Assembly (NCBI GenBank): GCA_022842935.1
Contig: JALHOP010000015.1
Coordinates: forward strand, 62,001-126,000
Source: Myxococcota bacterium
GTDB taxonomy: Bacteria > Myxococcota > XYA12-FULL-58-9 > JALHOP01
Length of the DNA: 64,000 bases
Direction of reading: 5' to 3'
The notes beneath the pieces were generated by a model. The model saw only the letters and a program-made list of their open reading frames with translations, had not been told where the DNA came from and did not search any database. Shown here in pieces: positions 27,640-41,736 of this stretch (positions within the stretch are counted from its first letter, which is position 1; each line of letters starts with the position of its first letter). The translations under genes and the position numbers were made by a program.

Positions 27640-30600
27640 TCAGAAGCTGGTGCCGATGCGGAACATGGCCGCCGTCCCGCCGCCCGGGGTGTGCGATACC
27701 GAGCCCGTCGCGAAGAGGTCACCGCGCTGGTAGCTCAGCGACGCGTGACCGCCGACGCGGGCAGGCTCATGGAGCCACTCGTTTCGCACGAGACCGCCCA
27801 GCGCCGCGTGAGCACCGGCACGCAGCGTCCAGGTCGAGTTATCTGCGTTGGTGTGCCGATACTGGAAACCACCCGCCGCGGTCGCCGGAAGAGTCATATC
27901 GTTCGGCAACGGCAGGGTATTGAACACGCGCCAGTCACCTTGCAAGCGGGCGTTGACCTGGGCGCCGTCGACGAGGCCCCCGTACAGACCAACGCCGCGT
28001 GTCACCCCGCTTGCATCGGTGCCCTGGATGCCCGCGTGGACGAGCGCGCTCCAGGATTCGGTCGGCACGAGCGGCTGCTGCACACCTGACAGCGGCTCTG
28101 CGTGGGGGTTGAAGCTCCGTGGCGGCGCCACCGTGAGACCTCCCCAGAACAGGCTGTCGCGACCCAGCGAACCCACGGTGAATGCGCCGTTGGGGTTCAC
28201 CTCGAAGTGGTCACCGAGCCGGTAGCCGCCGGCCATGAGCCCCATGCCGTCGGTGAAACGCATGGCGTCGAACGGGCGGTACGTGACGACGGCACCAACG
28301 TGGCTGCCGGAGGCCGAAAGAGGACCCGCTTCCAAACGGAGCCGCCCCTGCCCCGTCGTGTCCTGGACGTGGAATTGCGCCTGGTTGACCTGCACCATCG
28401 CGAGGGCTTCGAGCTGACGCGCGTTGTCGATGCGGAGGCTGAAGGGGATGCCAGCGTAGCTCGTGCTGATGTGCGCGGTGATGCGTGAGTTGTCGGCGGT
28501 CGGAGTCAGCGTGATCATGGCGCCACGCGCAAGGCCCGAGATGCCGCTGACACGCGCCAGGACGTTGTCGACTTGCTGCATGTCGACGTTGACGTTGAGG
28601 TCGCCGTTGCGGACCCGAACATTCGTCGCGGTAATGTTGTTGATGTGGAGGGCGCCGTCCACGAGCGAAATGTCGACGTTGCGACCGCCAGTCTCGACCG
28701 AGACATCGCGCCAGGTGCCGAGGGCCTGGAAATCCTGCGCACGGCCGCGCCAGGCTCCAGTCGCCGGGTCGTAGCCCAAGCTGTAGATGCCACGGCGGAT
28801 ATCGGCTGTGACATCGCCCTGGTTGACGAGGAGTTGGCCACCATCCGGGACGCGCAAGACCGCTTCACGGAACAAGCCATCGGTGAAGCGCGTACGCAGC
28901 GACAGGCTCTCACCCGGTGTGTTGTTCACGCGAATGGTCGTGTCGCGATAGCGCGCATCGAGCGTTCCTACGTCGATGCCAGCGTTGGTGAGCCGTCCTT
29001 GCGCATCGACGTCGAAGCCCGCGCGCAGGTTGGCGCTGCTGGCGACGAGGCCCAAGCTGCGGATGTCGATCTGGCCGCGGTCGAAGCCGATACGCAGCGC
29101 CTCACCTGTCGCGTTCCGAACATATCGCGCGTCGAGGCCCTCGACACCGATGTTCACGTCGCTGTCACGGCTCGTGAGCGTCGAGCGTCCTGGCAAGAGC
29201 ATGTCGATGTTGGCGACTGTGCCGTCCGGCATCGTACGCACGTTGACATGGTCGGCGTTGGCGACCGTGACACGGTGCCCATCGAGCGTCATGCCGATGT
29301 TGCGGCCCGACAGTCCAAGCGACAGCGCGCCGTTCGCATCACGACGAACCTCCGCGATGGCGTTGTCGACCGAGAGGTGCGTGAGCTGACTGGTCGCCGT
29401 GTTGCCGTCGAAGCGGATATTGTCGCCGGCGAACCGCAACGCGTCGCCATCTGGCCCGAAGCTCGCGTCGACGGTACCGTTGACGAAGCGCAGGGTGCCA
29501 CGGCGGTTGGCATAGGAGAAAGCCTCAGCCGTGCCACGAAGAGTCGTCGTCGTGCCGTCGGTGCGCAGCTCGAGTGCGCCGTTGCGGCCGACCTCGTAGG
29601 TGCCGTGCCCGCTCGTGTAACTTGCGGAGAGCGCGTTGCCGCGCATGATGACGGTGTTGCCCTCGCGAATGAAATCGAGGGAGCCCTGGCGCGCCACCAG
29701 CGTGGTCCCGTTTTGCTGCAGCTCGAAGCCACGGCTGCCGCCTGACAGGCGAGAGAGCAAGCCGTTCTCGTCGAAGCTAGCATGCAGGCTGGCGCCGGTC
29801 GCCACCATGTGCGTGCTCGGGTCCGTGAAGCGTACGTTGTCGCCCTCGCCGACGATGCTCGTGAGCTGCCCGCGCTGGTCGTAGTTGATCTGGAAGCTCG
29901 AGGTTCCGGTCGCCCGCCAGTTGCGGTCGCCCATCGCGAGGTTCACGTCACGCCCACGCAAAGCGAAGGCCGACGAGCCATCTGGACGGCGTATGAAGTC
30001 GACGGCAGCGACGTTGGCCTGAAAGCTGTTGCGGCCGTCGTCAAAACGAACGCCGTTCGCCGTCCATCCGAGGTTACCCGCTCCCGTACGGCCGTCGCGG
30101 TGCAGTGTCATTGTGAGGGTTTCGGCCCGGAAGCCGGCCGTCCGTGTGGCAACTGCGACGTTGGCGGCATCGGCGGTCCAGCGCGCCACATCACCCTCGG
30201 TCGTCGCTGTGATGCCGGCGCGCCCGCTGGTGACGCTCACACCAGGCGTACGGAGCGCTAGCGCGTCAAAACCCGCGCGCATGGACTCGGGTGACCCGCT
30301 CGCGAACTCGGCACCGGTCAGACGGATGGTCGTCTGCGATCGACGCAGGTCGATGTTGGCGGAATCGGCGCGCATCAAGAACGAGCCGTCGGTAGCAAGC
30401 CGCGTCTGCAAGCCCTGGAGGTCAATGGAGGTCGAGCGTGTATCGACGCGGAAGCGCTCGAGCACCGACGACTGGCTTTGCGGACCGATGTTGAGGTCGA
30501 GCCCGCCCAGGTGCGCGGTTGTGCCGTTGGCGGTGAGGAAGGCGCCCGGGCTCTGCAGCCGGAGATTGCCATCGCGCGCGACGAGGCGCGCGCCAGGGGG

Positions 30601-31218
30601 CACTGCGATGCGGGTCCCCCTACCGTCGTCGTAGAACACCGGGAACCGCAGCACGCGAGTAAAGTTTGCGTCGCGTGGAATGACACTGCCCAAGGTGGTC
30701 GATAAATCCGCGATCGCGGATCGCATGCCCGTCGGGGCGCCGGTTGGCGTATTGCGGATGATGGCGCGGTTGGCGGCCCCGGCAAGCTCCAGCGCTGTCG
30801 TGGCACCAGGGGTCACGCGATCGAGTCGGTCGCGGCCGCGCAGCAGATCGTCGCCGGCACCAACCACTGAACGACGGGCTTGACTGAGCTCTCGGTCGAG
30901 ATCACCCGTGACGTTTCGAATCTCGCGGGTCAGCTCTTCGGTGGGTACCCGCGCCACACCGCTCGGCGCAGCCGGCTGTGGAATGGTCACGTCAGTGACG
31001 ACGATCCCCGTGCGATCGACCACAGACCGCAGGTCGCTCGACAGAGCAAGCCGCGCGCGAGCGGGCGCGAGCGCGTCGGCACCGAACGGAGAACCAGAAA
31101 GCGAGGGGCGCGGGCCAACGCCGGACTCCGGTTCGACGTCGACCTCGGTCGCCGCATCGGTCGTCAGCGGGCGCGGTTGCGGAAGCCGTTGGATGCGATG
31201 CTCGTTACCGTCGGCCAT
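27640..31218 (-). CDS. 1192-aa beta-repeat protein with C-terminal barrel, no visible signal peptide
   Basis: A large protein from ATG 31218, with GGAAGG eight to ten bases upstream. Residues 1-190 are Pro/Ala/Arg-rich with predicted coiled segments. About 190-960 are many short beta-strand units alternating with Gly/Asn turns (patterns such as VRFDDGRNSF, NVRTMPDG, DLNVNVDM), like the OstA/LptA-type beta-jellyroll stacks in style. The last 220 residues alternate like an outer-membrane barrel and end in Phe (RIGTSF), the usual BAM signal. No signal peptide is visible at this start or in the upstream extension. It lies head to tail after rlmI-like and before lemA. No named family is recognised. 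Confidence 0.75.
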   Translation of the reverse strand: MADGNEHRIQRLPQPRPLTTDAATEVDVEPESGVGPRPSLSGSPFGADALAPARARLALSSDLRSVVDRTGIVVTDVTIPQPAAPSGVARVPTEELTREIRNVTGDLDRELSQARRSVVGAGDDLLRGRDRLDRVTPGATTALELAGAANRAIIRNTPTGAPTGMRSAIADLSTTLGSVIPRDANFTRVLRFPVFYDDGRGTRIAVPPGARLVARDGNLRLQSPGAFLTANGTTAHLGGLDLNIGPQSQSSVLERFRVDTRSTSIDLQGLQTRLATDGSFLMRADSANIDLRRSQTTIRLTGAEFASGSPESMRAGFDALALRTPGVSVTSGRAGITATTEGDVARWTADAANVAVATRTAGFRAETLTMTLHRDGRTGAGNLGWTANGVRFDDGRNSFQANVAAVDFIRRPDGSSAFALRGRDVNLAMGDRNWRATGTSSFQINYDQRGQLTSIVGEGDNVRFTDPSTHMVATGASLHASFDENGLLSRLSGGSRGFELQQNGTTLVARQGSLDFIREGNTVIMRGNALSASYTSGHGTYEVGRNGALELRTDGTTTTLRGTAEAFSYANRRGTLRFVNGTVDASFGPDGDALRFAGDNIRFDGNTATSQLTHLSVDNAIAEVRRDANGALSLGLSGRNIGMTLDGHRVTVANADHVNVRTMPDGTVANIDMLLPGRSTLTSRDSDVNIGVEGLDARYVRNATGEALRIGFDRGQIDIRSLGLVASSANLRAGFDVDAQGRLTNAGIDVGTLDARYRDTTIRVNNTPGESLSLRTRFTDGLFREAVLRVPDGGQLLVNQGDVTADIRRGIYSLGYDPATGAWRGRAQDFQALGTWRDVSVETGGRNVDISLVDGALHINNITATNVRVRNGDLNVNVDMQQVDNVLARVSGISGLARGAMITLTPTADNSRITAHISTSYAGIPFSLRIDNARQLEALAMVQVNQAQFHVQDTTGQGRLRLEAGPLSASGSHVGAVVTYRPFDAMRFTDGMGLMAGGYRLGDHFEVNPNGAFTVGSLGRDSLFWGGLTVAPPRSFNPHAEPLSGVQQPLVPTESWSALVHAGIQGTDASGVTRGVGLYGGLVDGAQVNARLQGDWRVFNTLPLPNDMTLPATAAGGFQYRHTNADNSTWTLRAGAHAALGGLVRNEWLHEPARVGGHASLSYQRGDLFATGSVSHTPGGGTAAMFRIGTSF

Positions 31219-31285
31219 CTGAGCGCAACCTTCCCATCTTCGCGGGTCTGTCTCTAGTATCGGCGGAGATTGGTTGCCGATGCCT

Positions 31286-32470
31286 CTAAAGCACCATGAC
31301 AACGCGGCACTTCAGGTAGTCGGTCTCGGGGACCCCGCCCAGGATGGGGTGGTCCGGCCCAGCGGCACGTTTCTCGACGAAATGGATATAACGCTGCGCG
31401 TCACGCGCTGCTGCGACGATCATCGCGTCGAAGGCCTCGGGGCTGATACGCCCGGAACACGAGCAGGACACGAGGATGCCGTTCGGCGCGACGAGCTTCA
31501 TCGCCCGGAGGTTCACCTCGTTGTAGGCGCGCAGGGCATTTTGCTCGGTGTCCTTGCCCGCCGCGAAGGCAGGCGGATCGAGAATCACGGTGTCGAAGCG
31601 GTCGCCTGCCTTCACCAGTTCAGGGAGAAGCTCGAACACATCGCGCGCCTGGGCGTCGACGACAGATGCGAGGCCTGCACGTTCGGCATTGGCTCGCACC
31701 TTCTCGACCGCTTGAGCAGACACGTCGACCGCCGTCACACTAGAGCATCCGGCGGCTGCCAGCTGCAGCGCAAAGCCACCGTGATATGTGAAGCAGTCGA
31801 GCGCGCGACCACGGGCATAACGCGCCACGTGGACATGGTTCACCGCCTGGTCGAGGAACGAACCGGTCTTCTGATCGGTGAGAGGGTCGATGCGATAGGC
31901 AATCTTGCCTTCGTGGTAGAGCGCCTCGACCGGCTCCTTGCCATGCACTACGCGAACGTCTTCGCCAAGTCCCTCGCGGCTGCGCGCGCGCGCGTCATTC
32001 TTCACGACAAGCGCGCGCGGCTTGTAGAGATCGAGCAGGGCCTCAACGACGGCCGGCTGGAGCATGTCCGCTGAAGCGGTCGTCGACTGGGCGACGAGCA
32101 CATCGTCGTAGCGATCGACGAAGAGGCCAGGAAGGCGATCGGCTTCGCCGTGCACGGCGCGGTAGGCGTCGAACCCCGGCATCAAGCGCTCGCGACGCTC
32201 GCGGGCCTCTGCGAGGCGCGTCTTGATCACAGCCGCGTCGAACGGCTCCTTGCCTTTCCCAACCATACGCAACGTGATGGCCGAGCGCGGCGAATACATG
32301 GCTGTGCCGTACACGCGCCCGTCTTTACCGGCGACCTCGACGAGCCCAGGCGTTTTGCCGGGCATGTCGCTGATGTCGCTCGCGTAAACCCACGGGTGTC
32401 CCTGACGCAGCCGCTTCAGGCCCTTTTCGTGCACCACGGCACGTCCGCGAATGGTGAAGGTGTCGGTCAC
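31286..32470 (-). CDS. rlmI: Class I SAM-dependent rRNA methyltransferase (RlmI-like)
   Basis: 394 residues, the length of E. coli RlmI. An N-terminal PUA domain (about 5-80, GHPWVYASDI) binds RNA; a linker domain of about 90-195 follows; the Rossmann methyltransferase has motif I DCFTYHGGFAL, motif IV LDPPAFA, and the SCSCS segment (motif VI) with cysteines for m5C chemistry. E. coli RlmI methylates C1962 of 23S rRNA. The equivalent target here is inferred only from homology. The start lies 88 bases from the end of the ybeD gene. Confidence 0.9.
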   Translation of the reverse strand: MTDTFTIRGRAVVHEKGLKRLRQGHPWVYASDISDMPGKTPGLVEVAGKDGRVYGTAMYSPRSAITLRMVGKGKEPFDAAVIKTRLAEARERRERLMPGFDAYRAVHGEADRLPGLFVDRYDDVLVAQSTTASADMLQPAVVEALLDLYKPRALVVKNDARARSREGLGEDVRVVHGKEPVEALYHEGKIAYRIDPLTDQKTGSFLDQAVNHVHVARYARGRALDCFTYHGGFALQLAAAGCSSVTAVDVSAQAVEKVRANAERAGLASVVDAQARDVFELLPELVKAGDRFDTVILDPPAFAAGKDTEQNALRAYNEVNLRAMKLVAPNGILVSCSCSGRISPEAFDAMIVAAARDAQRYIHFVEKRAAGPDHPILGGVPETDYLKCRVVMVL

Positions 32471-33145: not shown

Positions 33146-34762
33146 TCAACTGCGCTTGACGACCGCTGTACCCTGTTTTGCGGGCCCGTCGATGCGAAAC
33201 CGGCTCACCTGGTCGCGCAGACGCCCCGCAAGGTCACTCATATCGCCGGCCGCCCGGGTGACCTCCTGCGCCGACACCAGGCCCTGGTTGGAGACGGCCG
33301 CGACCTCTCCCATCGCGGCCACCATCTGCTGCGTGCTGGACAGCTGTTGGTGGGTGCTCACGGTGATCTTCCGCGCGGACTCGGTCGCCTGCTCGATGAG
33401 GCCAAAGATGCTACCCATCGACTCCGCCATCTTGGCCATCTCCTCGACGCCCTGGCGGCTGGTCGCGGTGCCCTGCTGACTCGCCTCGAGTGACGCCTGG
33501 ATGAAACGGTGGATCTCCTCGATCGTCTCCTTGATCTCCTTGGTCGAGCCCACAACGTTCTCGGCGAGCCGACGCATCTCCTGCGCAACTAGGGAGAAGC
33601 CCTTGCCAACCTCACCGACGCGCGACCCCTCGAGGGCGGCGTTTAGGGCCAAGAGGTCGAGGCGGTCCGAGATGTCATCGATGATGTCGACGACATTGAT
33701 GATGGCCTGCGACTTTTCGTAGAGCTTGTTGATGCGGTCGGCGATGAGGTCGTTCTGTTCGGCGATCTCACCGATGGCGTTGCGAGCGATGCGCAGCGCG
33801 TCTTGGCCCACACGAACCGTCGTCGACATCTCCTCGGAGACCTGGCTCATCGAGCCAGCGTTGGTCGCGATGACTCGCGCGGTGTCCGACAACGCGGACA
33901 TGCTGCTCGAGACCTCCTCGAGACTGGAGGACTGCTCGCGGGCGCCCTGCTCCTGTTGCCGCGCGTTCTCGGAGAACTCGCCAGCGACGCCGTTGAGCTG
34001 CACCGCCGTGTCGTTGATTTGCTTCACCAGGTTGCGCTGACTGATGAGCATGCGGTTGAAGGCGCTCGCCATGCGGCCGATGTCGTCCTCGGCGCCAACC
34101 ACGAGCGGGGGATGAGAGAGGTCACCGTGAGCCACTTTTTCGGCGACCTGGGCCATGACGGTCAGCCGGGTGGCAATGAAGCGCGCCAGCACGATGGCAA
34201 GGAGAAGTGCGCCGGCGAGGATGACGACACCGAGCAGGAAGGTCGCACTCTGCACGGCGAGGATCTCGTTCTGCACCCTGTTGGTCGACAGGCCCAGGAC
34301 GATGCTGCCATGCGTGCCGCTCTCGGACGTTGCGGAGCCGTAAATCAGCAAAACGTTGCCGATAGTCTCGACGTTGAGCTCGGCCAGACGCTGTGGCGCC
34401 AACAAGCGATCAAAAATGAAGCGGTCGACGCGCAACGCTGAGAGGCGACGTTCATCGGCATACTCCGCGACACGCTTGCCGTCCTCGGTGAAGGCGATTG
34501 CGAAGGCAAAGTCGGGATCACGCGACGCGCCGCGAAAGCTCTCGGAGATCGCCTTACCGTCACCAAAGTCGATGGCAGGCCCCGCTTGGTACGAAAGCAG
34601 GCGCACCAGCGCTTCGCCCTTGTCGCGCAACGCTGCGTTGAGGCCGTTGATCTGCCGAGCCGAGAAATACAGCAGCTGCAGAACGACAACCGCGAGAACG
34701 ACCGCGGCGATGGCGGAGAATATCTTCCAGAAGATGGAGAGGTTACGCAGGAAAGCCATCAT
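33146..34762 (-). CDS. Methyl-accepting chemotaxis protein with CHASE8-like sensor domain
   Basis: 538 residues. Transmembrane helices at about 14-33 and 171-193 frame a 138-residue periplasmic domain. Its sequence (ALVRLLSYQAGPAIDFGDGK, then a FAFAIAFTEDGKRVAEY block) matches my memory of the CHASE8 pattern known from YfiN. A HAMP domain (about 194-247) and a long coiled-coil signalling domain follow, with the conserved hairpin tip DRLDLLALNAALEGSRVGEV at about 370-389. The usual Ala/Ile of NAAIEAA is changed. ATG 34762 overlaps the stop of the YfiR-like gene by four bases (ATGA), so both are made together. Confidence 0.9.
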   Translation of the reverse strand: MMAFLRNLSIFWKIFSAIAAVVLAVVVLQLLYFSARQINGLNAALRDKGEALVRLLSYQAGPAIDFGDGKAISESFRGASRDPDFAFAIAFTEDGKRVAEYADERRLSALRVDRFIFDRLLAPQRLAELNVETIGNVLLIYGSATSESGTHGSIVLGLSTNRVQNEILAVQSATFLLGVVILAGALLLAIVLARFIATRLTVMAQVAEKVAHGDLSHPPLVVGAEDDIGRMASAFNRMLISQRNLVKQINDTAVQLNGVAGEFSENARQQEQGAREQSSSLEEVSSSMSALSDTARVIATNAGSMSQVSEEMSTTVRVGQDALRIARNAIGEIAEQNDLIADRINKLYEKSQAIINVVDIIDDISDRLDLLALNAALEGSRVGEVGKGFSLVAQEMRRLAENVVGSTKEIKETIEEIHRFIQASLEASQQGTATSRQGVEEMAKMAESMGSIFGLIEQATESARKITVSTHQQLSSTQQMVAAMGEVAAVSNQGLVSAQEVTRAAGDMSDLAGRLRDQVSRFRIDGPAKQGTAVVKRS

Positions 34763-35370
34763 CGGCCAACGTCGTTGATGACCTTCGCCAAACGAATCAG
34801 GTCGCTGCTGAACGAAGCCCCCTCCTTCTGACTCTGGCCCCAGTTGATCAGGATGCTCGGCTTACCCTCCATCACGAAGACGCCGATCGTTAGAGACTTG
34901 GTGACGTAGTCCTCGCGTGCACCCATGGTGATGATCTTGCGCTCCTGAGCGAGCGCCGCGATTCCGTCGACTTCGTTGTCGAGCCCATTGCATGCGTACA
35001 GGGCATCGACGCCCTCGTTGCGGATGAGGTCCTTCATGGACCCGCCCGTGTCATAGGCGACCCGCATCGCTTTGAAGGGTAACCCGTGGACCGCGAACTT
35101 CTCGAGGCCTTTGAACGCCTGGAGAATCTCGTTGGCGCAGTTCTCGGAGGCCGCATTACCGGCGCGGTAGAGGACTCCGACAGAAACGCCATCGCCCGCC
35201 CGCTCCTTCATGTTGCGGTCGTAAGCAAGCGCGCGCGTGAGAATGGAAGCTTGCCGCAAAGCGGGCACGCCCCCTTCGGCTTTGGCGACCTGCAACCCCA
35301 ACACCAAGCCTGCCAGAGCGAGGAAGACTGCTGTGACCTTGAGCAGCAACGCGCGTGGAAACAGGGTCAT
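34759..35370 (-). CDS. YfiR-like periplasmic protein
   Basis: 203 residues from ATG 35370, with a signal peptide (ALLLKVTAVFLALAGLVLG...KAEG). The mature region follows the YfiR/DUF4154 scheme: VSVGVLYRAGNAASENCANE, a GVDALYACNGL strand, a KSLTIGVFVMEGKPSILINW strand, and SFSSDLIRLAKVI at the end. Two cysteines (78 and 127) could form one disulfide. In Pseudomonas, YfiR sits in the periplasm and represses the diguanylate cyclase YfiN. Here the gene is coupled to a chemoreceptor instead. A GGAA lies about nine bases upstream; the open frame to 35478 is longer. Confidence 0.78.
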   Translation of the reverse strand: MTLFPRALLLKVTAVFLALAGLVLGLQVAKAEGGVPALRQASILTRALAYDRNMKERAGDGVSVGVLYRAGNAASENCANEILQAFKGLEKFAVHGLPFKAMRVAYDTGGSMKDLIRNEGVDALYACNGLDNEVDGIAALAQERKIITMGAREDYVTKSLTIGVFVMEGKPSILINWGQSQKEGASFSSDLIRLAKVINDVGR

Positions 35371-35455: not shown

Positions 35456-38400
35456 TCAGCGTTGCGGGACTGTGGCAAGTGAGCGGACCACGCGGGCCAC
35501 GTCTCCGGTCAGCCGCTCACGCATGGCATGGGTCACCAGACGTTCCCGTACCTGCGCCCGATCGCGCAGGAAGACCAGGCGCGCACGAATGGGCCCGTCG
35601 ATGCCACATAGACGGGCAACGGCCATGGCATAAGCATCGAGCTGGGTGGCGTAGGCGTCTTCTGCGGTCGCTTTGGCGTGCGCATGCTTGAAGTCGACAA
35701 TCACCGGCTCGTTTCCGTCCCAATAGAGAAGGTCGATCTGGCCGCTCACGGTCGCCGTGTAGCCTTCGACGCGGAACGGCACCACAAAGGGCATCTCGTG
35801 ACGACGCTGGGCCGGGGACAAGGCAGCGACATGCAGCCCGAGCGGCGAGGTGAGAAAGGTCAGGAGGTCGTCGCGAACGGCATCAAGTCGCGGATCTTCG
35901 GGGTCGTAGCCGCACAAGCGCAGCTCGGCATGGATGAACGCGTCGCGGCTACCATGCGCTGCCGCCCGATGGAGGTTGGCGAGGACCATGTGGCTCACGC
36001 GACCACGGGTGAGCGGATCGAGGGTCGCATCGCCCGCGCGACCGTTGGCGGTCGCCAAGCCCTGCCGGTGCCACGCGGGGCCTGCGCTTTCGGAGAGCGC
36101 GGACTCGAGATCTGTCACGGTAAGGGCAAAGCGCGTGCCTGCAGGGAGCTCCCTGACACGATGGTCGACATACGGTTTGGCGAGCGCGGCCGTCGCGGAG
36201 CCGAACAGGCTCAGCTGTCCTACGGGTACTGTTGCATCGCGCCCCACCGGCGCCACGACCGCGGGTCGCGCCGCCGCATCGTCGCGCTGGCGAATGGGTG
36301 GTAGCTCGTCTTCACCACGCGACACCATGACCCCGTCGTCGATGGCCCGGTCTTTCCAGGGCGCAAGCCCCCGCTCTTCATCGGCCTTGAGCAGCACCCG
36401 CGCGAAGCCACCCAGCTGCGCGTCGTCGGTCGCAACGAAGGTCACCTGCTTCTTGGCGCGCGTGACGGCCACGTAGAGCAAGCGCCGCTGCTCGGCGAGA
36501 CTCTCGTCGCGTTGCGCGACGAGGGCGGCGCGATAGGCGCGACTGCGCAAGCTCTTTCCCTTGGCCGCGCCCGTGGCTCCACGGCGCTCGGCGGCAACTA
36601 CGAATCCAACGCCTGGCGCGTGCCAGAGGCTACTGCCGCGTTCGTTACGGTCATGCGAGAGGTCGGCGAGAATGACGTGATCGAACTCCAAGCCCTTTGC
36701 CTGGTGAACCGTCATGATGGACACAGCGCGATCGCGCGCGGCACCCACTGGACGCAATGGCTCCATGACGCGGCGCTGAGCGAAGTCGCGCTGCTCGAAG
36801 ACGAAGTGCGAGGTGCCGCGACCCGAGCCGCGTTCGTGCGCCCACGCGAGCTCGCCAAAGCGCTCGATGTTGGCGACCTTCTGCTCGCCAAAGGGCAGCG
36901 CAAGGAGCGCCGCGCGGACGTCGAGCCGGTCGACAACCCTCGCGATCGCCCTCCCCGCGCCAAGCGTAGCGACGTCATCGACGAGATCTCTGAGCGCCGG
37001 GGCGACCAACCTTGCCGTCGCGATGTCAGGTGCGTACGTCGATAGGAATCCGCTCGCATCGCCGCGCCGCAGCGCGTGAAGCGCCGCCCGGTCACGCGTC
37101 CCGAAGAGGTGCAACATCGCAGAATCGGAAAATCCGATGAGCGGTGAGCGCATGGCGACAGCCGCCTCGAGATACGCCTCACCGTCGACGAGCCAGGTGA
37201 GCAGTGCCATCAGGTCGACGATCTCGGTCTGGTCGTAGAAGCCGCTGCCGCCGCTGATGACGGATGGGATACCCAGGGCCGCAAGAGAGCGCGTGAACTT
37301 CTGCGACTTGCCCATGGCGCGCAGCAAAATGGCGAAGCTCGACGGCTCGGCGCCAGCGTCGACCGCACCTCGGATGAGGCGGGCCACGGCACGGGCCTCG
37401 GCCTCGGCCCGCGCATGGCGATTGGCGTCAGGGGCAACGTCGGCCGTGAGCCAGACGAGCGCTGGCCCGTCGGCTGCAGCCTTGCCCGGCAACGCCTCAA
37501 GCTGCTCGTAAGGGGTCAGCATGGTGGCGCCCAGGTGATTGACGCCCGCTACGACACCGGCGCTCGAACGACGACTGACCTTGAGCTCGTCCATCTGGCA
37601 GCCGAGCGCCGCGAGATCGTCGGCGAAGCGATTGAACGCCTCGGGATCAGCGCCACGGAACGTGTAGATGGCCTGCTTACGATCACCCACGACGAACAAG
37701 GTCGCCGGTTCGCCATCGCGGACAGCACCATCGAGCCCCGCCAGGAGACGAACGAAACGACGTTGGCTTGCGTTGGTATCTTGAGCCTCGTCGACGAGGA
37801 TGACCTTGTAACGGTCGCGGACGCGCGCGTGCAGCTCGGCGTCGTGCAGCAGTGCATGACTCGTTTGCTCGATGAGGTCAGGGAAATCGGCCGAGCGCGT
37901 CTCGCGTTTCAGCGCGGCATAGCGTTCGCACGCGGAGCGCATGAGCTCTTGCAAGGGAGGCACGAGCGCTGCCGCGGCTTGTTCGGCCAGCGGCTCGTCG
38001 ATGAGCTCGGCGAGCTCCTTGCGCTCGGCAGCTTCGTCGTTGAGCCGAGCGCCCTTGAGCTCGTCGTTGGCCGCATGCCACGCGGCCGCCCAAGCGCCGA
38101 GGTCGTCTCCCAAGGCGGGCACCTTGTGGAGGAGAAAGTCGCCTACTTGCGTCTGCGTCTTTTTGCCGTAGGTAAGACGGTTGGCGTTTAGCGCGTCGCG
38201 CAAACGGAGCCAGCGCTGGTGAACATCGCGCTGCGCGGCCCGCGCATCGTGCGCGGCGAAGCGCTCCCAGAGGGGGCGCGGATCATCGTCTTCCCTCGCT
38301 TTGGCGACCGCCCCCCACATGGCGTCGACAAGGCCCTCGCCCTGTGGCCCCCGCGCCGAAAAGCGGATGTCCTTGCTCACCGCGGTCAAGGCCTCGCGGC

Positions 38401-38788
38401 TCTCGGAGCGGGCGCCGAACCATGCCTCTTCGCACGCAATGCGGAACATGCGCTCGTCTTCGCCGAGCTCGCCCATGATGGTCGGCACATCGGTGAAGCC
38501 ACCGTGAATGCCAAACCCCTGCAACATCTGCAGGGCTAGGCCGTGAAAGTTCGCGATGGGCGCACGACCGAGCTCGTCGAGCACCTTGCGATCGACACCC
38601 TTCTCGATGAGTCGCACGCGAATGCGCGCGCGCAGCTCGGCCGCCGCTTTCTTCGTGAAGGTGATGGCAACCACCTGTGTGGGCGACAGGTTGCGGTCGA
38701 TGATGTGGCCAACGTAGGCCTCGACCAGTTGATACGTTTTGCCTGTCCCGGCGCTCGCGCGCAGGAAGCGATGGGTCATGCCGCTCAT
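35456..38788 (-). CDS. addA: UvrD/RecB-type helicase-nuclease (AddA-like)
   Basis: 1110 residues. Superfamily 1 helicase motifs are visible in order: ASAGTGKTYQL (Walker A, 11-21), VDEAQDTN (Walker B), VVGDRKQAIYTFRGAD (motif III), VHQAKGLEFDHV (V), and LLYVAVTRAKKQ (VI). The C-terminal RecB-like nuclease has IDLLYWDG and VDFKHAH, with the Q-x-x-x-Y-A segment (QLDAYAMAV) behind. It should act with AddB in double-strand-break processing. The start ATG overlaps the addB stop by four bases, so the order is addB-addA. A Chi-like sequence cannot be predicted from this window. Confidence 0.9.
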   Translation of the reverse strand: MSGMTHRFLRASAGTGKTYQLVEAYVGHIIDRNLSPTQVVAITFTKKAAAELRARIRVRLIEKGVDRKVLDELGRAPIANFHGLALQMLQGFGIHGGFTDVPTIMGELGEDERMFRIACEEAWFGARSESREALTAVSKDIRFSARGPQGEGLVDAMWGAVAKAREDDDPRPLWERFAAHDARAAQRDVHQRWLRLRDALNANRLTYGKKTQTQVGDFLLHKVPALGDDLGAWAAAWHAANDELKGARLNDEAAERKELAELIDEPLAEQAAAALVPPLQELMRSACERYAALKRETRSADFPDLIEQTSHALLHDAELHARVRDRYKVILVDEAQDTNASQRRFVRLLAGLDGAVRDGEPATLFVVGDRKQAIYTFRGADPEAFNRFADDLAALGCQMDELKVSRRSSAGVVAGVNHLGATMLTPYEQLEALPGKAAADGPALVWLTADVAPDANRHARAEAEARAVARLIRGAVDAGAEPSSFAILLRAMGKSQKFTRSLAALGIPSVISGGSGFYDQTEIVDLMALLTWLVDGEAYLEAAVAMRSPLIGFSDSAMLHLFGTRDRAALHALRRGDASGFLSTYAPDIATARLVAPALRDLVDDVATLGAGRAIARVVDRLDVRAALLALPFGEQKVANIERFGELAWAHERGSGRGTSHFVFEQRDFAQRRVMEPLRPVGAARDRAVSIMTVHQAKGLEFDHVILADLSHDRNERGSSLWHAPGVGFVVAAERRGATGAAKGKSLRSRAYRAALVAQRDESLAEQRRLLYVAVTRAKKQVTFVATDDAQLGGFARVLLKADEERGLAPWKDRAIDDGVMVSRGEDELPPIRQRDDAAARPAVVAPVGRDATVPVGQLSLFGSATAALAKPYVDHRVRELPAGTRFALTVTDLESALSESAGPAWHRQGLATANGRAGDATLDPLTRGRVSHMVLANLHRAAAHGSRDAFIHAELRLCGYDPEDPRLDAVRDDLLTFLTSPLGLHVAALSPAQRRHEMPFVVPFRVEGYTATVSGQIDLLYWDGNEPVIVDFKHAHAKATAEDAYATQLDAYAMAVARLCGIDGPIRARLVFLRDRAQVRERLVTHAMRERLTGDVARVVRSLATVPQR

Positions 38789-41736
38789 GCGCTTTCGCCT
38801 TCGACGTCGTCGAGGTCTTCGGTGTCGAGCTCACGCGCGCGACACAAGCGCCGCATCTCACAGACATCACAGATCGTCGCTGGGGCTGGATCCGGCTCGA
38901 GGCGGCCAGCCAGGAGTCGATCGACGCGCGGCCAAAGGGTCGCGTCGAGCGTCGCCTGAAACGTCGCCACGTCGCACGCATCGGCGCCCCCGAACACCGC
39001 CGCGTCGCGCTTCTCTTCGCCGTCGCCGAGCTGGCGCCAAGCGGCGGTAAGGCGCTCGCCTCTCGCGAAGTCGCGCGCGACGACCGCCCCATACATCGCG
39101 AGCTGAAAATGTCGCCCTGGCTCGAACTTTGGCGCGGTGCTCTTGTAGTCGAGCGTCACCAAGAGCTGTGGTGCACGGTCGACCCGGTCGATGCTGCCGA
39201 CAACCGTCAGCTCGCGGTCGCTATTCGGGTCTTTGAGTTGAAGCGCTTTATCGTCGCGAAAAGCGTACTCGAGCTCGAGCGGCTCGTGCTCGCGACGGGG
39301 ATCGAGGTCTTTATTGAGCTGGACGACGACGCTACGCCAGGCTTGCGCCAGCGCCGTTTCGACCATCGCCGGATGGATTGGCACTTCGCGGAGAATTTCG
39401 ACACGTTTAGCAGCGAAGACGCGTGCAGCGCGCTGCATGGTCGCGTCAACGTCACGGCGCGCAGCCGCGAGCCCGCCGTTCGCGACGATGTCGGCGTAGA
39501 CGTAGCGAAGCGCTTCGTGAGCGGCGAGGCCGTCTTCACGCCCGTCAGGAGCAAGACCTGGGGGCTGGTCATCGGAGAGTCTCAATAAGTGCTTGCCGAA
39601 GTGACGATAGACGCAGCGCCCGAGTGCGTCGAGGCTGGAGACGGAGAGCGGCCTCTCGAACACGAGAGACGCAAGGCGTGCGCGGTCGTCGGCGGCGAGC
39701 GCCGCCGGCAAACGGCCAGTGCTCGCCGCACCCTCGTGCGCTGCGCGGCGAGCAACCCAGCTCACGCTCTCGCTATCGCAGACGTCGCGGGCTGCCCGCG
39801 CTGCGACGGTCGGTGCCGGCGCAATGCCGGGTCCGGGTGCAACCGAGCCGAAGGCGACGAGCTCGAGGACCTGGGCAGGCGCTATCAGCGCCGCCTCAGC
39901 GTACGTAGGAACCGGGGTCTCGGGCGAAAGACCGCGCATCTTGAGCAGGTCATTGACCATGTCGCAGCGACCGTCTTTTTCGGCACCCTCGCGTACGCCG
40001 TAAGTCACGACGACCTGACGGCGCGCGGTAGCCAACGCTTCGCGCCACAGCCAGCGATCGCGCGCATCGTTCTCGAGGGCCGGCCGGCCGTCGATGGGGG
40101 CGCTTTGCAACAAACGGACACCGAAGGTGCGGTTGAGCTCATCGCGCATGGCGTCGGTGAGAATGACGTCTGGGCGCACACGGCGTGGAAAGGCCTCTCC
40201 GTCGACCCCGGCAATGACCACACATTGATAGGCGGCACCCACGAGGTCATCGAGAGTGCCGATGGTCACACTACCGGCGCGATTGCCGAGAGCGGGCAAG
40301 CGCCGCTCGGCGGCCAGCGCCATGAGCCAAGCGTGCAACTCATCGGCAGCGAACGCGGGGGCATCGTCGCCCAGCAGTCGCGCGCCAGCCGCAAGATCGC
40401 CTAGGACATCGGCGAGGGCGGTCAAACCCTCATCGTCGTCGAGATCGGCGCGCTGCGGAGGACGCCGACGGACGTCTTCGACGAGGGCAACGAGGCTTGC
40501 GAGCTGCCGCCGCAAGGACGGCGCCTTCGCAGGCTCGCTCCAACGCAGCATGAAGGCCTCGATGGCCGAGGCGTAGGCTTCGGCGCGCTCCGCGCCAGCA
40601 CCAGCGCCACCGAAACGTGTATGCGCTTTAGCGGTGAGAGCGTCACGGTAGTCGCGCACGGCGGGCGAGCGAGCCCCGGCCGCGCGTACCTCGCGGGCGA
40701 CCCGCTGTGGCGAGTGGCCGTTTACCGCTTCGCCCAGCGCGAGCCAGGCGTCGATGAGCTCTTCACGTCGGTAGCCACCAACACCCAGCCCGACCGCAGC
40801 GATGACCGCCGAGACACGCCGTACCCGCCCCGCCGGGAGCCCACGACGCGTGTGCGCGGGTGCCCCAAAGCGCTGCATGGCCTCGGCGATGAGCTCGCCC
40901 AGCCCGTCGGGATCTGGAGTCGCGACCGCAATGCCGTCCGCTGGAACTCCCTCGGCAAGCCACGCGGCAACCGTCGCAGCGACGCGCCGGGCTTGCTCTG
41001 CTGGCTCTGGCACATGCAGGACACGCGGCGTGGCGACGAGCGGTCGGGGGTCATGAACGACCTCGAGGTGAGCGCTCTGCTGCGCGGTCTTCTCGATGAC
41101 CGCGAGCGAGGCCTCGCTCCAGCTGAAGTCAGCGGGCAGATCGGAGTCGTAGGGAATGCGCACGGTGACCTCGTGGCCACGCGCGGCAAACGCCCTCAGC
41201 AGATCTCCGCGGCTCCCGAACAGATCGGCATCGCCCTCGACGATGACCTCGCGGACCTCGGCGAGCGGGGGCGGCAAGTCACCCTTGGCGACTGCGAGCA
41301 CGGCGTCGCGCCATTTGTCGGCGTCGTCGATGAGGCGCTTCTGGGCGAGCAGCGCCTCGTAGGCGATGAGCACGTCGACGAGCTCATCCAGCTCGCCCGA
41401 GAGCTTTTTCTTCGCCTTCGAAAGGACCGAGCCGGTCAAGCCGCACGTCCGCAGCTCGAGGAGAGCACCATGCACCGCCCGCACCGCAATGGGGTCGTGC
41501 GCAAAGCGCTGGAAGTGCTCGGGGCCACGCAACATGACCTCTCGCACGAGCATGCGAATGACGACGCTACCGGCGGCTAGACGCGCCCCACCGGCCAAGA
41601 GGTCGGCGAGACCAGAAAACGTAACGAAGCCCTCGGCGACGAGCGCGTCGGCTCCCGCAGCGTCGACCAAGGCGTGCTCGAGCGCTGCCCGGGACGGAAA
41701 GATGCGCAGCGTCGTTGTGCGGGCGGGCAACCCCAT
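38785..41736 (-). CDS. addB: PD-(D/E)XK nuclease/iron-sulfur helicase-like subunit (AddB-like)
   Basis: 983 residues. The N-terminal half is a degenerate helicase-like region with no clear Walker A lysine in the expected place, as in AddB. The C-terminal nuclease has GSIDRVDR and TLDYKST. The four cysteines expected for an AddB-type [4Fe-4S] cluster are present: Cys707 or so in GRCVYRHF, and CDVCEMRRLC near 955-964. It forms the AddAB complex with the downstream addA product. The addA start lies inside its stop. Confidence 0.85.
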   Translation of the reverse strand: MGLPARTTTLRIFPSRAALEHALVDAAGADALVAEGFVTFSGLADLLAGGARLAAGSVVIRMLVREVMLRGPEHFQRFAHDPIAVRAVHGALLELRTCGLTGSVLSKAKKKLSGELDELVDVLIAYEALLAQKRLIDDADKWRDAVLAVAKGDLPPPLAEVREVIVEGDADLFGSRGDLLRAFAARGHEVTVRIPYDSDLPADFSWSEASLAVIEKTAQQSAHLEVVHDPRPLVATPRVLHVPEPAEQARRVAATVAAWLAEGVPADGIAVATPDPDGLGELIAEAMQRFGAPAHTRRGLPAGRVRRVSAVIAAVGLGVGGYRREELIDAWLALGEAVNGHSPQRVAREVRAAGARSPAVRDYRDALTAKAHTRFGGAGAGAERAEAYASAIEAFMLRWSEPAKAPSLRRQLASLVALVEDVRRRPPQRADLDDDEGLTALADVLGDLAAGARLLGDDAPAFAADELHAWLMALAAERRLPALGNRAGSVTIGTLDDLVGAAYQCVVIAGVDGEAFPRRVRPDVILTDAMRDELNRTFGVRLLQSAPIDGRPALENDARDRWLWREALATARRQVVVTYGVREGAEKDGRCDMVNDLLKMRGLSPETPVPTYAEAALIAPAQVLELVAFGSVAPGPGIAPAPTVAARAARDVCDSESVSWVARRAAHEGAASTGRLPAALAADDRARLASLVFERPLSVSSLDALGRCVYRHFGKHLLRLSDDQPPGLAPDGREDGLAAHEALRYVYADIVANGGLAAARRDVDATMQRAARVFAAKRVEILREVPIHPAMVETALAQAWRSVVVQLNKDLDPRREHEPLELEYAFRDDKALQLKDPNSDRELTVVGSIDRVDRAPQLLVTLDYKSTAPKFEPGRHFQLAMYGAVVARDFARGERLTAAWRQLGDGEEKRDAAVFGGADACDVATFQATLDATLWPRVDRLLAGRLEPDPAPATICDVCEMRRLCRARELDTEDLDDVEGESA

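Follow-up and report, generated by a model that had tools for sequence, protein, structure and literature searches.

A probable rewired YfiR switch in Myxococcota: YfiR-like proteins paired with CHASE8-type chemoreceptors and often encoded beside TonB-dependent receptors

What does a YfiR-like protein act on when the gene coupled to its own encodes a chemoreceptor in place of a diguanylate cyclase, and what feeds it when no YfiB is encoded beside it? Both questions are raised by two minus-strand genes in a stretch of 64,000 nucleotides from a Myxococcota bacterium (contig JALHOP010000015.1, positions 62,001 to 126,000), referred to here as the window. The features on which the argument relies are the following:

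33146..34762, minus strand: CHASE8-HAMP-MCP chemoreceptor, 538 aa (Pfam and translation)
33293..33745, minus strand: match to the MCP signalling domain, receptor residues 340-490, with hairpin tip DRLDLLALNAALEGSRVGEVGKGF (Pfam, 97.9 bits, and tip alignment)
33902..33931, minus strand: methylation-site-like motif SSSLEEVSSS, residues 278-287 (sequence)
34046..34192, minus strand: HAMP domain, residues 191-239 (Pfam, 39.9 bits)
34346..34633, minus strand: CHASE8-type periplasmic domain, residues 44-139 (CHASE8 bits, model, and alignment with E. coli DgcN/YfiN)
34759..34762, minus strand: 4-nt overlap ATGA of receptor start and YfiR stop (sequence)
34759..35370, minus strand: YfiR-like (DUF4154) protein, 203 aa, predicted to be exported to the periplasm (DUF4154 match, AlphaFold model, Foldseek)
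38785-41736 and 35456-38788, minus strand: AddB/AddA-like helicase-nuclease pair (gene order upstream of yfiR)

In the overlap, the ATG of the receptor (34762-34760) is interlocked with the TGA that ends YfiR (34761-34759), and the third-position GC (83% and 79% in the two ORFs) as well as the codon-position GC pattern fit coding sequence. On the minus strand, the AddB/AddA-like pair is followed by a gap of 85 bp, yfiR, the receptor gene, a tRNA-Ala gene and a DUF493 gene. The gap contains one weak terminator-like hairpin, and no sigma-70-type consensus was found in the region of the yfiR locus. An earlier note, made from the DNA letters, had described the two ORFs, their four-base overlap and the lack of a YfiB-like partner next to them; both ORFs lie where it had placed them, share the ATGA, and no OmpA/Pal-like gene is adjacent. 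No TonB-dependent receptor (TBDR) gene lies near the pair either. Elsewhere in the window, a protein of 1220 aa with no Pfam match is encoded at 27640-31302 (minus strand). Together, the two genes specify a small regulator in the periplasm and a membrane-bound chemoreceptor that is probably under its control.

The 203-aa protein matches DUF4154 (PF13689) above the Pfam threshold (30.9 bits versus a cut-off of 24.9), with residues 89-196 covering profile positions 44-143 only. Export is predicted from a single hydrophobic stretch at the N-terminus (residues 8-26) and an AKA/EGG-like signal-peptidase site after it, with a signal peptide of approximately residues 1-31. The AlphaFold model, based on an alignment of 57 sequences, has a pLDDT of 94.7, and in Foldseek it matches the solved YfiR structures 4zhu (TM 0.64/0.72), 4yn7, 4yn9 and 4xjy and the YfiB-YfiR complexes 5eb1 and 6ikk. 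Of those, 4zhu, 4yn7 and 5eb1, together with other YfiR entries, lie at TM 0.6-0.74, in support of the YfiR fold. The protein contains two cysteines, C78 and C127, neither of which aligns with the cysteines of E. coli YfiR. The pairs Cys71-Cys110 and Cys145-Cys152 of the redox-sensing Pseudomonas YfiR (PMC4655355) were not found in the sequence of the window protein.

The receptor has two hydrophobic helices (residues 14-32 and 175-193), and its output is an MCPsignal domain (97.9 bits), with no GGDEF domain identified by Pfam. CHASE8 (PF17152) scores are borderline: 26.9 bits (E 6e-6) on the whole receptor and 29.9 bits in the genome-wide run, against a cut-off of 27, while those of its relatives are clearly above it. 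The model of the periplasmic domain (pLDDT 92.6) is PAS/Cache-like, and its structure matches include WalK, PctD, CitA and the LapD-type CdgS9. With these results, the YfiR identity of the small protein, the two transmembrane helices and the signalling hairpin, all proposed in the earlier note, are confirmed, and its CHASE8-like sensor is upheld by a profile score around the cut-off together with the fold. The receptor segment PAIDFGD aligns with AAVVFAD of E. coli YfiN; the row of locus L190 in this alignment, being out of frame, was disregarded. The phenylalanine of the AAVVF motif, proposed as part of the YfiR site by Malone et al. 2012 (PMC3375315), is kept, and the rest of the motif only partly so (PAIDF). 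At the hairpin tip, the receptor has unchanged counterparts of Tsr N381, E385, R388 and E391, with R394 replaced by K and V398 by L (Tsr numbering). The tip is nevertheless divergent, having RLD in place of QTN. The motif SSSLEEVSSS, which resembles the methylation-site consensus, is a putative methylation site, and no CheR tether was found at the receptor C-terminus.

To what extent the pairing is shared was assessed in 195 Myxococcota genomes, in which YfiR-like loci were examined with local profiles and neighbours were counted within 3.5 kb. DUF4154 is present in 55 of the 195 genomes and CHASE8 in 65; in the window genome, the one Pfam match to each falls in the described pair. The 88 YfiR-like loci comprise 33 with a kinase-type receptor within this radius, 17 with an MCP (the window and two loci placed by their che-cluster context included), 36 with neither and two that were unassigned. 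The YfiR-like genes near a chemoreceptor come from 17 genomes of 8 families, so the pair is not confined to one genome. Among them are five genomes of the window's own order (e.g., G188, G192, G193 and G194), five Myxococcus-group genomes with the order MCP then YfiR, and G013, where a TBDR gene on the opposite strand lies between the YfiR-like gene and the MCP gene. After collapsing relatives at 45% identity, 12 of the 47 clusters retain the MCP pairing (p at most about 4e-6), and with the 17 genomes and 8 families this rules out chance pairing. A first scan of named genomes worldwide returned nothing and a second one only two Myxococcus/Pyxidicoccus loci, and plasmids gave no match. In three loci (L077:518-5188, L119:4361-6607 and L117:2916-4829), DUF4154 lies at the C-terminus of open frames of 637-1556 aa with no other Pfam domain, which are either fusions or over-extended ORFs.

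In four of these genomes, the YfiR-like gene lies inside a chemosensory cluster. In G003, G006 and G008 it is grouped with genes for CheW, PilZ-REC or REC, CheA, CheB and TPR-CheR and for a HAMP-MCP receptor that fits the local CHASE8-HAMP profile in its N-terminal region; G001 has the same gene order up to CheA, inside which the contig ends. The signalling domain of the window receptor is 50% identical to that of an orphan MCP with the same tip in its own genome (contig C6) and 38-44% identical to the che-cluster receptors of G001, G003, G006 and G008, in which its tip type is also found; other MCPs reach 37% or less, with far lower scores. Some YfiR-linked MCPs (L110, L114 and L079) have the tip LNAAII or LNASII, with isoleucine for the usual tip glutamate, a replacement shared by two orphan MCPs encoded on contigs C3 and C6 of the window genome.

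The window genome encodes 8 MCPs and five CheA clusters, and the window receptor, an orphan, is encoded far from every CheA gene. Judged by sequence, the best candidate for supplying its kinase is a cluster on contig C4, with CheW, a hybrid CheA-REC, CheB, TPR-CheR and REC, a content like that of the YfiR-bearing clusters, and without an MCP gene in the part that was read. Each of the four CheAs from YfiR-bearing clusters finds its best match in the C4 CheA. The C4 cluster is only a candidate because the margin becomes small once REC is removed, and the best-match status fails for the ATPase/CheW part alone. After the cluster (L175:71-9757, G000:C4) come genes for a CHASE2-adenylate cyclase and a Crp-like protein, which hints at cAMP as an output. 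Since two flagellins and 19 GGDEF domains are also encoded in the genome, motility and c-di-GMP are both possible outputs.

According to Pfam, the 68 receptors sharing the CHASE8-HAMP N-terminal region include 39 with HATPase_c, 21 with MCPsignal and three with a guanylate cyclase domain; the histidine kinase is the commonest YfiR-linked output in the phylum. GGDEF is absent among the 25 Pfam families listed, of 29, for these receptors, and scanning of locus ORFs for GG[DE]EF turned up no such motif. An origin from GGDEF inside the phylum has, on these listed families, no support. The earlier proposal of a rewired control module therefore stands as regards a chemotaxis-type output replacing GGDEF, while the part by which the module moved from a diguanylate cyclase finds no support in these genomes. 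In quick trees, MCP coupling requires three changes on the YfiR tree and five to six on the CHASE8-HAMP tree, and an AU test does not reject a single MCP-coupled clade (p 0.127). The hairpin-tip classes differ and thus suggest more than one MCP graft.

Starting from the observed protein identities, gene coupling, conserved pairing and its presence inside che clusters of four relatives, we consider it likely that the YfiR-like protein and the receptor form a trans-envelope module that provides input to a chemosensory array, in which reversible YfiR-CHASE8 binding sets CheA activity. Once exported to the periplasm, the YfiR-like protein would bind reversibly to the receptor dimer at its PAS/Cache-like CHASE8 domain, and an outer-membrane partner, a ligand or the folding of the YfiR-like protein itself would determine its binding state. 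This state would shift the HAMP domain and the four-helix hairpin, thereby altering how active the CheW-held CheA kinase is, and the receptor would adapt via CheR/CheB methylation. We infer both the YfiR-receptor binding and the identity of the kinase, and repression as the sign of YfiR action would follow by analogy with YfiN. Against the mechanism are the redox cysteines that are not conserved, the partly kept AAVVF motif, the borderline CHASE8 score and the orphan state of the receptor.

Instead of being a titrated repressor, the YfiR-like protein might be a small-molecule binding protein that presents its ligand to the CHASE8 receptor, as in LuxP-LuxQ or a sugar-binding protein with Trg. 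Foldseek also returned the ABC-type binding proteins 3lft and 3lkv, which are given as structural neighbours of YfiR in the YfiR crystal paper (PMC4655355), with LuxP further down the list. The model resembles one lobe of such substrate-binding proteins (3lft with L-Trp, 3lkv and a Rhodothermus substrate-binding protein); however, one lobe alone forms no classical two-lobe cleft. In Pseudomonas YfiR crystals, L-Trp and vitamin B6 are bound in the pocket that also takes F57 of YfiB (PMC4887326), which would speak for ligand binding. Taken together, we regard this alternative as unlikely. Another reading concerns the receptor, which could be a non-chemotactic, array-independent MCP-like protein, or be tied to YfiR by co-expression only, without direct regulation. 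Its distance from any CheA, the QTN to RLD change at the tip and the missing C-terminal CheR tether would agree with this, but the tip retains its key residues and is of a type also present in che-cluster receptors, and the pairing is conserved in 8 families and found inside che clusters in four relatives, making such a reading highly improbable.

Around the 88 YfiR-like loci, that of the window included, the survey detected no YfiB-like (OmpA/Pal-like) ORF. A TBDR gene lies at 3.5 kb or less from 52 of them (e.g., L060, L065, L110, L114 and L157), and in 24 of the 47 clusters after the collapse at 45% identity, far more than chance would give, the expectation from how many TBDR genes each genome has being about 5% at most. 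The neighbouring TBDR is a candidate answer to what feeds YfiR without YfiB. The window genome itself has a second YfiR-like gene, missed by the Pfam DUF4154 model and caught by the local profiles:

L173:5284-7955 (G000:C11, about 148283-150954): TBDR gene and second YfiR-like gene, 8 bp apart

This gene starts 8 bp past the TBDR gene and lacks an adjacent receptor; it is 47-50% identical to that of the window and its nearest row on the YfiR tree. The YfiR-like proteins of Myxococcota, and perhaps those of any organism without YfiB, could tentatively be periplasmic adaptors that link an outer-membrane TBDR to a CHASE8 receptor of the inner membrane whose output is a kinase or an MCP domain, with the halves split in the window genome (TBDR and YfiR2 on C11, YfiR1 and the MCP in the window), though we give this rather less than an even chance. 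A precedent for one receptor reading two YfiR proteins is Thauera, with two YfiR homologs and a single YfiN as reported by Malone et al. 2012 (PMC3375315). If the adaptor reading is true, outer-membrane substrate recognition would steer a chemosensory array, and a TBDR feeding YfiR would join outer-membrane nutrient uptake to chemosensory or kinase output. The accessible text of the open-access literature yielded no report of a YfiR-TBDR link, the co-mentions being a regulator study and a gene screen.

The YfiR-MCP pairing itself is not new, because MCP domains in place of the GGDEF domain of YfiN are already mentioned by Malone et al. 2012 (PMC3375315), and the rewiring had thus been published. 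That paper's main text contains neither of the words Myxococc- and TonB, and the passages found in it mention the MCP cases without their architecture, distribution or che-cluster context. Nothing was found in the open-access literature on YfiR in Myxococcota, nor on DUF4154 together with chemotaxis. With this locus, the brief remark in the literature on MCPs as possible outputs of YfiR systems becomes concrete, recurrent and testable, with four genomes having YfiR inside che clusters.

The pair resembles NCBIfam NF053591 (TOL_0243 YfiR-like protein) and NF053592 (histidine kinase near YfiR-like) in combining a YfiR-like protein with a CHASE8-type receptor. NF053592 matches the receptor from its N-terminus through HAMP (44 bits, cut-off 194), and NF053591 matches 27 of 57 relatives; those systems have kinase output, and the window YfiR-like protein itself matches neither YfiR model. 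As in YfiBNR of P. aeruginosa and YfiR-DgcN-YfiB of E. coli, a DUF4154 gene lies just upstream of, and overlaps, the gene of a two-TM CHASE8/PAS-HAMP receptor, and the YfiR-like model has the fold of solved YfiR, at 11% identity to E. coli YfiR. Unlike YfiBNR, the window pair has MCP output for GGDEF, no YfiB-like gene beside it and none of the redox cysteines. It shares with the divergent YfiN-YfiR pairs described by Malone et al. 2012 (PMC3375315) a YfiR and PAS/HAMP core with another output (MCP or histidine kinase), and amounts to a rewiring, recurrent in Myxococcota, of a known switch for biofilm control, with the YfiR-like gene often beside a TBDR gene.
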